Of a stretch of 33,408 bases of DNA, positions 8,101-12,877 are shown one piece after another. This DNA is from an uncultured Pelagibacteraceae bacterium (GTDB lineage: Bacteria > Pseudomonadota > Alphaproteobacteria > Pelagibacterales > Pelagibacteraceae), in NCBI GenBank assembly GCA_902573585.1, contig CACGKH010000008.1, positions 1-33,408 on the forward strand, given 5' to 3'. How positions within the stretch are numbered: the first letter of the stretch is position 1; each line of letters begins with the position of its first letter. A model generated the notes under the pieces. It searched no databases, was not told the origin of the DNA, and worked only from the letters and a program-made list of their open reading frames with translations. A program made the translations under genes and the position numbers.

Positions 8101-9437
8101 TGTTTAAGAAAATCTTAATTGCAAACCGTGGGGAAATTGCAGTCAGAGTTATTAGGGCTTGTAAAGAATGGGGCATTTCAACAGTTGCTGTTCATTCTGA
8201 TGTAGATAGAGACAGTATGCATGTTAGGCTTGCTGATGAAAGTATTTGTATAGGTTCACATCAACCTTCAAATAGTTATTTGAATATTCCAGCATTATTA
8301 TCTGCTGTTGATTTAACTGGTGCTGAAGCAGTTCATCCTGGTTATGGATTTTTATCTGAAAATGCAAACTTCGCAAAAGTTCTGGAAGATAACAACATTA
8401 AATTTATTGGAGCCTCTTCTAAACATATAAAAATGATGGGAGATAAAATTCAGGCTAAAAAAATTGCAAAAGAAAATGGTTTGCCAGTAATTGAAGGTTC
8501 CGAGGGAGGTGTAAAAGATATTTCACAAGCAAAAGAACTTTGCAAAAAAATTGGTTTTCCTATTTTGATTAAAGCATCTGGTGGAGGCGGAGGAAAAGGG
8601 ATGAAAATTGTATACAAAGAAGAGGAATTTGAAACTTTATTTTCTACTGCTAAATCTGAAGCGATGAAATATTTTGGAAATGACGAAGTTTATATAGAAA
8701 AATTTTTTCAAAATCCTAGACATATTGAAGTTCAAATATTAGCTGGGAAAAATAGAACTGTTCATTTGCATGAAAGAGATTGTTCTGTACAAAGAAGACA
8801 TCAAAAATTAATAGAAGAAACTCCAAGTCCTGTTTTAAATGATGAAATTAGAAAGAACTTGTTTGAAAAAACAGTCAATATGGTTAGTAAAATTGGTTAC
8901 GAGGGTGCAGGGACAGTGGAATTTATATATGAGGATGGAAAATTTTATTTTTTAGAAATGAATACAAGAGTTCAAGTTGAACATCCTGTATCCGAGATGG
9001 TAACTGGTATTGATATCATTAAAGAACAAATACATATCGCATTTACAGGAGAAACAGCATTAACACAGGCTGATATAAAACCTAGGGGTCATGCTATTGA
9101 ATGTAGAATAAATGCAGAAGATGCCAGTAAAAATTTTCAACCATCCCCAGGAATAATTGGAATGTGTCATCAACCATCTGGATTTAGGACAAGAGTAGAT
9201 GGAGCCATATTTCAAGGATATAAAGTAACACCATATTATGACAGCATGATATGTAAACTTATATGCCATGGAAGAAACAGGGTTGAGGCAATACAAAGAA
9301 TGAATAGATCCTTGGATGAGTTTGTTATAGAAGGAATTACAACTACTATACCACTCCATAAAAAACTTTTAAATCATAAAAAATTTTTAAGTTCTGATTT
9401 TAATGTAAGCTGGCTTGATAAAGAAAAGATTATTTAA
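8100..9437 (+). CDS. accC: Biotin carboxylase subunit of acetyl-CoA carboxylase
   Basis: Uses ATP and bicarbonate to carboxylate the biotin on AccB. The 445 residues show the full family plan: KILIANRGEIAVRVIRAC (4-21), the ATP-grasp glycine loop GGGGGKG (161-167), RDCSVQRRHQK (226-236) and the metal/bicarbonate-binding EMNTRVQVEHP (286-296), then the C-terminal biotin carboxylase domain. The start is coupled to accB by TAATG. It converges on the DUF2155 gene with a 4-bp stop overlap and no visible terminator. Confidence 0.98.
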   Translation: MFKKILIANRGEIAVRVIRACKEWGISTVAVHSDVDRDSMHVRLADESICIGSHQPSNSYLNIPALLSAVDLTGAEAVHPGYGFLSENANFAKVLEDNNIKFIGASSKHIKMMGDKIQAKKIAKENGLPVIEGSEGGVKDISQAKELCKKIGFPILIKASGGGGGKGMKIVYKEEEFETLFSTAKSEAMKYFGNDEVYIEKFFQNPRHIEVQILAGKNRTVHLHERDCSVQRRHQKLIEETPSPVLNDEIRKNLFEKTVNMVSKIGYEGAGTVEFIYEDGKFYFLEMNTRVQVEHPVSEMVTGIDIIKEQIHIAFTGETALTQADIKPRGHAIECRINAEDASKNFQPSPGIIGMCHQPSGFRTRVDGAIFQGYKVTPYYDSMICKLICHGRNRVEAIQRMNRSLDEFVIEGITTTIPLHKKLLNHKKFLSSDFNVSWLDKEKII

Positions 9438-9841
9438 TAACAACCAACTAACCAAATATCATAAACTGGATGATCAAATGGGGTTATGGATGGACTTGAG
9501 GAAAAAATCCAACCATTAAAAACATATACATCATCATTGTTTTTATTTGTTAAATCTTGAACTTGAATATAAGCAGTAATTTCTGGATTATCATCAAATT
9601 CTGAATTTCGACATTTTATACTTTTAATTAAGAGATCTTTATATCTTCTTTCTTTACCATTTTTGAGTTCAATTAAAGTATTTTTTGAACTTATTTTGTC
9701 TAATACTTTAATACTTGTATTTTGACCATCGAGTTCACTAGCAAAAACTGCATTTTCTAAAGAGTAATTAAAGAAAATTAGGAAAAAAATAAAAAAAAAA
9801 AATTTATTCTTTCCAGCTCTTATATTTTTTTTCAATAACAT
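9434..9841 (-). CDS. Secreted DUF2155 family protein
   Basis: A small exported protein of unknown function, conserved in Alphaproteobacteria. It has a basic N-terminus, a Phe-rich hydrophobic signal segment (FFFFIFFLIFF) and a probable cleavage after VFA. The mature domain ends with the family pattern: a Cys-containing strand (KCRNSEF), then FNGWIFSSSPSITPFDHPVYDIWLVGC. The two cysteines could form a disulfide. I chose the ATG at 9841 because it gives a normal signal peptide; the frame also opens at an ATG at 9871 preceded by AGGAA, so the start is uncertain. With the 9841 start it overlaps the upstream NDUFA12 gene by 38 bases. The signal segment is encoded by a run of 12 T on the coding strand. 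Confidence 0.82.
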   Translation of the reverse strand: MLLKKNIRAGKNKFFFFIFFLIFFNYSLENAVFASELDGQNTSIKVLDKISSKNTLIELKNGKERRYKDLLIKSIKCRNSEFDDNPEITAYIQVQDLTNKNNDDVYVFNGWIFSSSPSITPFDHPVYDIWLVGCY

Positions 9842-10163
9842 TTTTGTTTTTATTTGGATAATAGGCAGCATCAGTTCCTGTTAAATTTGGTTGATGAGGT
9901 TTTTGCCATTCGTACTTTTCTAAATCATGATTTTTTTCAATTTTATTTGGTGTAAAATGTATCCATGAATACCACTCTACTGGAATTTTTGAGGCGTCAA
10001 TTTCATTTGCGTAAATAACCCACCTTTTCCCTTTTTTACTCTCATAGTATTTGTTTCCTAGAGAATCTGTGCCTACAAATTTTCCAAAAAAAATAGTTTT
10101 TATTCTTGTTCCAAAAGTATCCTGATTCCACCAAGTGAAAATTTTTTTTAATATTGTCAACAT
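9804..10163 (-). CDS. NDUFA12-type NADH:ubiquinone oxidoreductase accessory subunit
   Basis: A 119-residue homologue of the mitochondrial complex I accessory subunit NDUFA12 (B17.2), one of the few such subunits already present in alphaproteobacterial complex I. Motifs: FTWWNQDTFGTRIKT near the N-terminus, FVGTDSLGNKYYES, RWVIYANEIDASKIPVEWYSWIH and the Pro-rich NLTGTDAAYYPN end. No signal peptide is seen, as expected for a peripheral matrix-side (cytoplasmic) subunit. It is first in a two-gene unit with the DUF2155 gene; the core nuo genes are not in this window. Confidence 0.9.
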   Translation of the reverse strand: MLTILKKIFTWWNQDTFGTRIKTIFFGKFVGTDSLGNKYYESKKGKRWVIYANEIDASKIPVEWYSWIHFTPNKIEKNHDLEKYEWQKPHQPNLTGTDAAYYPNKNKNVIEKKYKSWKE

Positions 10164-10234
10164 ATAAAATTAATAAAGTTTCAATTTAAAATTGTATAAA
10201 TTAAATTAGACTAAAATATTAATTTGTATATAAA

Positions 10235-10281: not shown

Positions 10282-11091
10282 ATGGCAAAATATCTAGTTG
10301 AAACATATTACACATGCACATTCAAAGTTAATCACTATTTAGATGATATTAATGAAACAGAGCTTAAAAATCTTGAGAAGAGAGACGACGGAAAATTTGA
10401 AGTTTTGGATGTAAAACTTGATAATCGTAAAACAAAAAATCTTGATCCAAAAAATAACAAAGTCATTGAAAATAAAAAAATTGATGTAGTTTCAAATGAT
10501 AAAACTAACACTTCAAATAATTTAAAAGATATAATCAAAAATAAGGAATCAATTTCAGATTCAAGCGGTAAAAGATTTAGTATGCCTGATAGACGGAAAG
10601 GCTATATCCAAAAAGCAACAATTGGAGATCATAAAGTTTATCTTCATACTGGTGAATATGAAGATGGTAAAATTGGCGAAATATTTATTGATACAAGTAA
10701 AGAAGGTGAATTAGTAAAAGCTTTAATGAATAACTTTGCAATAGCTATTTCATTAGGTCTGCAATATGGAGTACCTTTAGATGAATTTATAAGCGCATTC
10801 GTAGGGACAAAATTTGAACCATCAGGTAAAGTTCATGGTAATGATAGAATTCTTAGTGCATCTTCTATTTTAGATTATATTTTTAGAGAATTAGCTATTT
10901 CTTATCAAAACAGAGAAGATCTAGCACATACACCCTCAATTGGAGCAAATGATAATTCTAATTTAGATGATCAAAATCAGTTATTGAAAATTGTTAAAGA
11001 TATCACAAGTAAAGGTTTTGTCAGAAATAATTATAAAAAAAATTTGGTTGATTTATCAGATGTCAAAATTAATTTAAAAGGGAAAAAATAA
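10282..11091 (+). CDS. Orphan protein with NrdJ C-terminal (TSCPD-type) domain
   Basis: A 269-residue protein whose residues about 101-217 ([73 protein letters not shown]) match the C-terminal region of vitamin B12-dependent ribonucleotide reductase NrdJ, the TSCPD-type domain. The catalytic barrel and its active-site cysteines are absent, and the only Cys is Cys12, so it cannot be a reductase alone. The first 52 residues ([16 protein letters not shown]...[10 protein letters not shown]) look like a separate conserved module; residues about 53-98 are a low-complexity linker. It stands alone between divergent and convergent neighbours. GGGG precedes the ATG by 4 bases. Pseudomonas has a split NrdJa/NrdJb reductase in which NrdJb carries this tail, but no catalytic partner is in view. 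The function is unknown. Confidence 0.85.
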
Positions 11092-11092
11092 A

Positions 11093-12877
11093 TTATTTTT
11101 TTGTTTTTAAAGACAAACCTAATTCTTTTAATTGTTTCTCATCAACATCTGATGGTGCACTCATCATTAAATCTTGAGCATTTTGGTTCATTGGAAACAT
11201 TGTTACTTCTCTTATATTTTTTTCATTTGCTAAAAGCATCACTATCCTATCTATACCCGGTGCTATTCCCCCATGAGGAGGTGCACCATAACTTAATGCA
11301 TTTATCATACCGCTAAATTTCTCATCAACTTGTTTTTTATTATAACCAGCTATTGAAAATAGTTTATACATTAGATCAGGTTTGTGATTTCTAATAGCTC
11401 CAGAAGAAAGCTCGATGCCATTGCAAACGATATCGTATTGATAAGCAAGTATATTAAGGGGATTTTTTAATTCATTTTCAGTTAAATTTCCCTGAGGCAT
11501 AGAAAAAGGATTATGACTAAATTTAATCTTATTTGTATCTTCATCTTTCTCAAACATTGGATAGTCAACAATCCAACAGAAAGCAAAAGTATTATCATCT
11601 ACCAAATTTAAATCTTTTGCAATTTTATCTCTTGCTTGAGAAGTAATTTTTTCTAATTCATTTTGTTTTCCACATGCAAAAAATAAACTATCTCCTACAG
11701 CTGAGTTAGTTTTTTCCATTATTTCAATTAAAGCTTCTTTTGAAAAAAATTTTCCAATAGGTCCTTTTGCTGAGAGATCACCATCTTTTTCTAAAGTAAA
11801 ATATGCCAATCCTGAGGCACCTTGCTCTTTTGCCCATTTATCAATTCCATCAAAAAAACTTCTGGGTTTATCTTTTGTATTTTTAGTTGTTATACATCTA
11901 ACTTTACTGCCTGATTTGACTAATTTTTTAAATATTTCAAATGTTACATCATCACGGTCGAAAATTTCGGTTATATCATTTATAATTAATGGATTTCTTA
12001 GATCTGGCTTATCTGTTCCATATTTTAGCATAGTATCAACATAAGAAATTTTTGGAAATTTATCATACATCAGTTTTTTGTTAGAAAATTTAGTGAATGT
12101 GTTTACTAAAAGTTTTTCAACTACATTAAAAACATCCTCTTGTTCTACAAAAGACATTTCTAAGTCTAATTGATAAAATTCTCCAGGGCTTCTATCAGCT
12201 CTTGCATCTTCATCTCTAAAACATGGGGCAATTTGAAAATACTTATCAAAACCAGAGACCATAATTAATTGCTTAAATTGCTGAGGTGCCTGAGGTAAAG
12301 CGTAAAATTTACCTGGGTTTAGTCTACTTGGAACTAAAAAATCTCTAGCACCCTCTGGACTAGACGATGTTAAGATGGGTGTTTGAAATTCTAAAAATTC
12401 AGCCTTGATCATTTCATCACGAATAAATGAAATTACTTTAGATCTTAAGATTATATTCTCATGTATTTTCTTTCTTCTTAAATCTAAAAATCTATATTTT
12501 AATCTTATATCTTCAGCATATTCTTGATCACTAAATACTGGCATAGGTAATTCATTGCAAGATCCTAGAACTTCGAAACTTTCAATTGAAATTTCTATTT
12601 CTCCTGTTTCAATTTCTTTATTTACAGTATCATCTGAACGACTAACAACCTTTCCTTCAATTTTGATAACAGTCTCTAATTGAGTTTTTTCTAACTTTGA
12701 AAAATTTTCGTTATCTTTGTCAATTATACATTGGGTAATCCCATAATTATCTCTAAGGTCAACAAATAAAAGATTACCATGATCTCTTTTTTTATTAATC
12801 CACCCAGAAAGAATAATTTTTTTATCTATGTCTTTTTTTCTAAGTTGATTACAATTATGGGTTCTATATTTATTCAA
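11093..12877 (-). CDS. aspS: Aspartyl-tRNA synthetase
   Basis: Class IIb synthetase that charges tRNA-Asp. Its 594 residues follow the bacterial plan: an N-terminal OB anticodon-binding fold (about 1-105), catalytic motif 2 in FRDEDARADRSPGEFYQLD, a bacterial GAD insertion in the middle, and motif 3 in GGIAPGIDRIVMLL near the end. The start is a TTG at 12877, immediately after the hdaA stop, with AGGAG inside the last hdaA codons as ribosome binding site. It is last in DUF2066-hdaA-aspS and converges on the NrdJ-tail gene with only one base between the stops. Confidence 0.98.
   Translation of the reverse strand: MNKYRTHNCNQLRKKDIDKKIILSGWINKKRDHGNLLFVDLRDNYGITQCIIDKDNENFSKLEKTQLETVIKIEGKVVSRSDDTVNKEIETGEIEISIESFEVLGSCNELPMPVFSDQEYAEDIRLKYRFLDLRRKKIHENIILRSKVISFIRDEMIKAEFLEFQTPILTSSSPEGARDFLVPSRLNPGKFYALPQAPQQFKQLIMVSGFDKYFQIAPCFRDEDARADRSPGEFYQLDLEMSFVEQEDVFNVVEKLLVNTFTKFSNKKLMYDKFPKISYVDTMLKYGTDKPDLRNPLIINDITEIFDRDDVTFEIFKKLVKSGSKVRCITTKNTKDKPRSFFDGIDKWAKEQGASGLAYFTLEKDGDLSAKGPIGKFFSKEALIEIMEKTNSAVGDSLFFACGKQNELEKITSQARDKIAKDLNLVDDNTFAFCWIVDYPMFEKDEDTNKIKFSHNPFSMPQGNLTENELKNPLNILAYQYDIVCNGIELSSGAIRNHKPDLMYKLFSIAGYNKKQVDEKFSGMINALSYGAPPHGGIAPGIDRIVMLLANEKNIREVTMFPMNQNAQDLMMSAPSDVDEKQLKELGLSLKTKK

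Follow-up and report, generated by a model that had tools for sequence, protein, structure and literature searches.

A stand-alone remnant of the class II ribonucleotide reductase NrdJ, without catalytic barrel or zinc ribbon, is conserved in Pelagibacteraceae

The protein described here is related to the C-terminal region of the dimeric class II ribonucleotide reductases (NrdJ). The cysteine-rich domain of NrdJ holds six conserved cysteines that serve electron transfer, and this domain is also required for oligomers, in which the NrdJ tail takes part (PMC5704485). For the IscU-like domain that class II reductases contain, no role is reported and dimerisation has been suggested (PMC9669993). 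The NrdJb protein of Pseudomonas acts by dithiol exchange via C-terminal cysteines (PMC4520616). In the open-licence literature, titles and the opening lines of abstracts yielded nothing on an NrdJ tail retained without its enzyme, and comparable excerpts on SAR11 and NrdJ contained no mention of the gene that we describe.

SAR11 bacteria are abundant in the ocean, and the family Pelagibacteraceae includes Candidatus Pelagibacter. The window, by which we mean the whole stretch of 33,408 nucleotides that was analysed, comes from an uncultured member of this family. It contains a 269-residue open reading frame (ATG to TAA) that an initial annotation had described as an orphan NrdJ C-terminal protein without a reductase, and the frame was recovered exactly as drawn there. 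The features of the locus are collected in Table 1.

Table 1. Features of the tail-gene locus, its neighbours and the NrdJ-derived proteins of family f28. Positions are those of the window unless a locus is named.
Feature	Position	Strand	Basis or remark
Stand-alone NrdJ-tail gene, 269 aa	10282..11091	+	ORF call; Pfam and NCBIfam matches; internal stops absent from family match rows
N-terminal module, residues 1-54, predicted strand-helix-strand	10282..10443	+	dN/dS 0.02; seen only in Pelagibacteraceae among genomes searched
Variable linker, low model confidence, residues 55-97	10444..10572	+	34.3% mean identity in genus; dN/dS 0.285; pLDDT <50 at 58-97
TSCPD / IscU-like domain of NrdJ (core), residues 98-217	10573..10932	+	95.7% mean identity in genus; dN/dS 0.011
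Conserved C-terminal block, residues 234-269	10981..11088	+	91.7% mean identity; dN/dS 0.022; pLDDT <50 at 236-269
NDUFA12-like gene, divergent neighbour, marks ancestral nrdJ slot	9804..10163	-	adjoins full-length nrdJ in sister family f2 too
DUF2155-like gene, second neighbour	9434..9871	-	read in locus comparison
aspS, convergent neighbour across slot	11093..12877	-	adjoins full-length nrdJ in sister family f2 too
NrdJ-derived proteins of family f28, ~500-580 aa	L223:397-1986, L224:289-1983, L241-L259		TSCPD kept

Scanning against Pfam placed the TSCPD family PF12637 at residues 110–205 (E 1.9e-13; 51 bits against a curated cut-off of 22.8), and the NCBIfam NrdJ model NF005736 aligned residues 63–258 with its positions 929–1133 of 1222 (E 4.8e-64), which upholds the assignment of residues ~101–217 to the tail of NrdJ. 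When the window protein is aligned with 21 orthologues from the family and 21 NrdJ tails, 52 columns are invariant, the first at R98 and the last at R248; relatedness to NrdJ extends to about residue 248, with S243, G245 and R248 invariant in all 43 rows. Neither the barrel family PF02867 nor the class II N-terminal domain PF08471 was matched in the 269-residue protein, and both were matched in a scanned NrdJ of the sister family f2, which belongs to the same order. The annotation had noted the missing barrel and a single cysteine, Cys12, and the latter observation extends to the orthologues: 143 of 144 (136 rows, 123 of them different, plus 8 rows from other genera) have one cysteine, always at position 12, and the remaining one has none. 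The NxCxE finger-loop motif occurs in none of the 144 and takes the form NPCSE in 18 of 18 full f2 NrdJ frames. No zinc ribbon, with its redox cysteines, was found in the tail protein.

The N-terminal module contains 12 invariant residues among 23 family rows and evolves slowly (Table 1), in agreement with the suggestion that the protein carries a conserved N-terminal part of its own; the 21 NrdJ tails of the 43-row alignment stop short of it. Profile comparison (hhalign) of the module with any part of f2 NrdJ and with the f28 proteins showed no relation (probability 0.1%), nothing in Pfam or NCBIfam matched it, and a match in PHROGs reached merely E 0.026. A search of 385 genomes of the class gave seven matches at E ≤0.01, five of them within Pelagibacteraceae; the other two were set aside as chance after inspection of their ORFs (one an unrelated ORF), and one of these chance matches lies in what we take to be ribosomal protein L4. 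A search with the module confirmed 404 loci, of which the 80 kept all belong to Pelagibacteraceae, Pelagibacterales or Candidatus Pelagibacter, and it is from the lineage of these loci that genome family f1 was equated with Pelagibacteraceae. The tail itself matches TSCPD and NrdJ, and the family call stands.

Of 148 Pelagibacteraceae genomes (family f1 at a completeness of at least 85%, plus the window's own assembly), 139 carry the gene, and they represent 8 of the 9 genera; one of the 139 has it split across two contig ends. Among 12 genomes without it (9 of the 148 together with G002, G018 and G020), the neighbouring NDUFA12 gene was unmatched in 11, and in G460, which lacks the tail gene, the contig begins inside NDUFA12. 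As a control, the NDUFA12 query was run on 13 loci with the tail gene, including 10 of other genera, and it matched in all 13 with E values no higher than 3e-26. Since the query works and this neighbour is not intact either, the locus itself appears to be missing from those 12 assemblies, and the absences of the gene look like assembly gaps. The 11 single-contig genomes of the family (G012, G138, G247, G337, G415, G428, G438, G444, G448, G450 and G458) each gave one match to the tail profile A1, with frames counted stop to stop. Because only tails of this family went into the profile, it may overlook distant TSCPD proteins; it found no match in 137 of 385 class genomes. Class-wide, the frames were mostly of ~1200 residues, the length of a full NrdJ, among the best matches listed, and 18 further class genomes, mostly those with the weakest matches, were re-examined for their frames.

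Comparison of loci revealed that the gene sits where the sister family has a complete nrdJ. All 16 f2 genomes have a single tail match, located inside a frame of 1196–1216 residues, and in the two f2 loci that were fully read the order is accC–DUF2155–NDUFA12–nrdJ–aspS, with an nrdJ of 1203 residues that ends in a cysteine-rich ribbon. (From their sequences, we take the flanking genes to be NDUFA12-like, DUF2155-like and aspS.) All 8 loci read from other Pelagibacteraceae genera have the tail gene flanked by NDUFA12 and aspS, and beyond NDUFA12 the genes DUF2155 and accC come next in most of the eight. A tree built from 121 columns of 60 tail domains, and rooted only at its midpoint, unites the 22 Pelagibacteraceae rows in one group (100/99), which joins the four f2 rows (95/88); in the part that can be aligned, the tail protein is 55–58% identical to four tails of f2. 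The shared slot and the tree together indicate that the gene is the remainder of nrdJ in its old place, and that both the catalytic barrel and the zinc-ribbon end of nrdJ were lost there, in the ancestor of Pelagibacteraceae. The annotation had taken the fact that SAR11 bacteria are not known to make B12 to suggest a different job for a retained tail; the tail is indeed kept without its reductase, but the remark needs a limit, as f2, of the same order, keeps a B12-dependent enzyme. As a separate observation, residues 289–362 of an f2 NrdJ (L205:2781-6359), inside the barrel region, matched the TACO1/YebC N-terminal family at a score under the cut-off.

As for the reductase, the Pelagibacteraceae genomes show a class I NrdA/NrdB. 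PF02867 was matched in 130 of 148 Pelagibacteraceae genomes and unmatched in 18, some of them at 95–96% completeness; it occurs together with the tail gene in 123 of 148 genomes and in all 11 that consist of a single contig. Each of these 11 yields two PF02867 pieces, the best of which lies in a frame of 646–664 residues (in G012, G138, G415 and G428 both rows lie inside one frame). In the Pelagibacteraceae loci that were read, the reductase is a class I NrdA of ~650 residues with NrdB adjoining, and two NrdA proteins that were checked have NLCSE as their finger-loop motif and ECLSCQ at their end. The absence of a separate catalytic NrdJ fragment, on which the description as an orphan depended, is therefore confirmed in the single-contig genomes, where PF02867 appears only in that 646–664-residue frame, which is not class II. 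The window's own assembly has no PF02867 match at all; being only 71% complete, it is uninformative on this point, and its relatives decide.

The annotation had proposed an accessory or regulatory subunit of another reductase, which here would be NrdA/NrdB; such a subunit might, for example, provide the activity control missing from a cone-less NrdA, and in G012 NrdA matched the all-alpha and barrel families only, without an ATP-cone family (Pfam). NrdA accompanies the tail gene in 11 of 11 single-contig genomes and is also present in 3 of 3 f28 genomes checked, yet such co-occurrence is weak evidence, because every cell needs some reductase. Beyond the family the association loosens: of the 168 class genomes in which a related NrdA was identified (E below 1e-100), 74 were without a tail-profile match. 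The tail gene is also far from nrdAB, at 296 kb against 405 kb in G012.

The upstream regions bear on the same question. A palindrome taken from two nrdA loci, ACAACATATAGTTGT, resembles an NrdR box. Among 20 nrdA loci from 19 genomes (L038–L040, L186–L196, L207, L208 and L260–L263) it is exact in 17 (16 of the 19 genomes) and has at most two mismatches in all 20, starting 46–49 bases upstream of the first Met of nrdA. It is not found at a fixed site before the tail gene, where the most similar sequence has 3–6 mismatches in 58 of 58 upstream regions, at scattered positions. Four mismatches were reached in 29 of these 58 regions against 115 of 1160 shuffles, so the sites are nearer to the nrdA palindrome than expected by chance, yet they do not converge on one position. 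The tail gene has instead a different palindrome, ACAATT...AATTGT, located 79–106 bases before it in several genera (for example in L044, L197–L199 and L201) and adjoining a conserved promoter-like block; the window's version is tcaatttaaaattgt, at about 10178–10195. This distinct element suggests that the gene may have its own regulator, and it also leaves room for regulation shared with nrdA. A scan for promoters and terminators showed no excess over chance. Rfam, at gathering scores, gave no match in the window and L205–L208, so no cobalamin riboswitch was found there. An accessory role beside NrdA/NrdB is thus possible but not favoured, and we give it a minority chance; an obligatory one is unlikely on these genomic comparisons.

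The full-length predicted model has a mean pLDDT of 64 and a pTM of 0.46, with blocks of pLDDT 82–91 for residues 111–210. Its best structural match (Z 5.8) is to an unrelated chain and falls within the range that the tool calls unspecific, and IscU, SufU and CsdE chains follow at Z 3.6–4.9 (rmsd 2.8–5.4 over 82–95 residues); the model therefore agrees only loosely with an IscU-like fold. For the N-terminal module, the model (pLDDT 84.6, pTM 0.42) had no useful fold match, which is no proof of a new fold, and the PDB contained no sequence relative of the tail. The appearance of SufU, IscU and CsdE among the best matches could point to an iron-sulfur or sulfur carrier like IscU or SufE/CsdE, but unrelated chains match equally well or better and the domain is free of cysteine in all 144 orthologues. 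We consider such a carrier very unlikely, and an iron-sulfur scaffold is rejected since the domain lacks its cysteine ligands.

That the protein might be an NrdJb-type subunit of a split class II enzyme, the parallel that the annotation drew with NrdJa/NrdJb of Pseudomonas, is in our judgment extremely unlikely. NrdJb works through dithiol exchange (PMC4520616), and the parallel fails on function, as the cysteines for that exchange are gone here: the zinc ribbon is missing, and the orthologues have at most the one cysteine at position 12. Nor is there a partner, since searching with PF02867 revealed in none of the 11 single-contig genomes a class II barrel frame that could serve as NrdJa. To judge from its sequence, a redox role like that of NrdJb is excluded for the tail protein, and the barrel that would bind adenosylcobalamin is absent from it.

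The tail gene is under strong purifying selection. Identity and dN/dS were computed from 34 of 58 loci of the genus, those in which all three genes were recognised. Beside the values given in Table 1, mean pairwise identity over these 34 loci is 89.4% in the N-terminal module and 53.8% in a short second linker, against 85.7% for the C-terminal part of the neighbouring AspRS and 74.7% for NDUFA12. The 150 closest pairs gave dN/dS of 0.020 in the module and 0.257 in the second linker, with the other segments as tabulated. For the whole gene the value is 0.067, above the AspRS C-terminal part (0.045) and below NDUFA12 (0.094), with dS near 1; it is raised by the two loose linkers. The core and both ends thus matter and the linkers little, and since the conserved blocks evolve at a lower rate than the neighbouring AspRS segment, the cell probably has an important use for the protein. 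A pseudogene decaying after the loss of nrdJ, which the position in the old slot without most of nrdJ might suggest, has a negligible probability and is refuted by dN/dS of 0.011–0.022 in three blocks and 0.067 overall, by family match rows free of internal stops, by presence in 139 of 148 genomes and by an upstream region that is partly conserved as well.

The 18 re-examined class genomes included two of family f28, with frames of 530 and 565 residues that have TSCPD and no PF02867. The tail profile matched in 110 of 120 f28 genomes (99 of the 104 good ones), with 108 of 113 match rows in frames of at most 700 residues, some of them cut by contig ends; one f28 genome additionally has a 1212-residue frame. 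As 5 of the 104 good genomes have no match, the domain is at times dispensable in this family. None of 17 aligned f28 proteins has the NxCxE motif or the zinc-ribbon pattern, both of which are present in 18 of 18 f2 NrdJ frames. An f28 protein matched full-length NrdJ in hhalign at E 1.5e-54 with the tail domain and at E 7.5e-11 over 155 columns when that domain was removed, indicating that these proteins derive from NrdJ. Their rows fall outside the group of Pelagibacteraceae and f2 in the tail tree, so f28 looks like a separate event. On the same strand after the f28 protein, 15 of 19 loci have a gene that we take, by recognition, to be RidA-like; the same was seen in 6 of 30 NrdJ loci, many of them with a flank too short to show such a gene.

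Other carriers of the domain were also observed. In G140 (family f101), whose assembly is 10% contaminated, an NrdJ-like frame (L225:1477-3366) has a partial, weak barrel match with TSCPD, in a genome with a normal NrdA as well, and it may represent a third case, in which part of the barrel has gone. A search of phages matched seven records, none over 80% of the query; in Bradyrhizobium phage BDU-MI-1 (KY940711.1:31162-31626) a tail domain is 51% identical to residues 56–218 of the window protein, in a gene annotated as class II reductase. A plasmid search with an f28 protein matched 16 records, in the 15 listed of which the tail domain alone was matched, and the annotated matches are B12-dependent reductases.

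We suggest the following account. After the barrel and zinc ribbon of nrdJ were lost in place in the Pelagibacteraceae ancestor, with class I NrdA/NrdB as the reductase found now, the TSCPD domain stayed, acquired a new N-terminal module and has since been held by strong purifying selection. The tail protein would be a non-catalytic scaffold, in which the IscU-like domain may provide a surface for self-association and docking, the role proposed for it in NrdJ oligomers, and in which the N-terminal module and the C-terminal block, on variable linker tethers, may bind conserved partners. Such a scaffold role would be separable from ribonucleotide reduction by the B12-dependent enzyme, and it was probably present already in the full-length form of that enzyme. 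Self-association and docking are proposed from a weak model (pTM 0.46, best match unspecific at Z 5.8) and from literature about full-length enzymes. We lean, by a modest degree, towards this account as a whole: an in-place remnant, kept by selection, that acts as a non-catalytic scaffold with a docking domain.

The two families carry the argument for a separate function. The domain is retained without a class II enzyme in Pelagibacteraceae and within a dead shell of that enzyme in f28, and its job is therefore probably separable from B12 catalysis; because f28, a second alphaproteobacterial family, preserves this domain in NrdJ-derived proteins that lack the catalytic motif, the role probably predates the loss of the barrel. 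More tentatively, and at somewhat less than even chances, the IscU-like tail of alphaproteobacterial NrdJ may have a second, often indispensable function unrelated to ribonucleotide reduction, such that a move to the B12-free class I enzyme shed the catalytic part and not the tail, which would persist as a stand-alone gene in Pelagibacteraceae and as a dead-enzyme shell in f28. Whatever the domain does in two families that keep it without a working class II enzyme has to be separable from catalysis, which makes them a clean test of the domain's role; the tail gene also illustrates how a domain can persist when a change of cofactor has made its enzyme disappear. Of the initial annotation's overall reading, the NrdJ tail without a reductase and with its own N-terminal module stands, the idea of a subunit is weakened, and the parallel with NrdJb fails on function; origin in place, conservation across the family and the separate second case in f28 go beyond it.

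Compared with known systems, the tail gene most resembles the C-terminal region of dimeric class II NrdJ (PMC9669993, PMC5704485), with which it shares a homologous TSCPD/IscU-like domain and, in f2, the genomic slot. Unlike NrdJ, it is a separate protein without barrel, zinc ribbon or redox cysteines and has a new N-terminal module. Like NrdJb of Pseudomonas (PMC4520616), it is an NrdJ tail encoded by its own gene; unlike NrdJb, it has neither an NrdJa partner nor the dithiol-exchange cysteines. It matches the TSCPD family PF12637 above the curated cut-off as a member would, but members lie mostly in frames of ~1200 residues, among the class matches listed with frames. The f28 proteins resemble the tail gene in having kept TSCPD, in having lost both the catalytic motif and the zinc ribbon, and in having NrdA alongside (three genomes checked). 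They differ from it in their part-barrel remnants and in an N-terminus that is different, with no match to the Pelagibacteraceae module.
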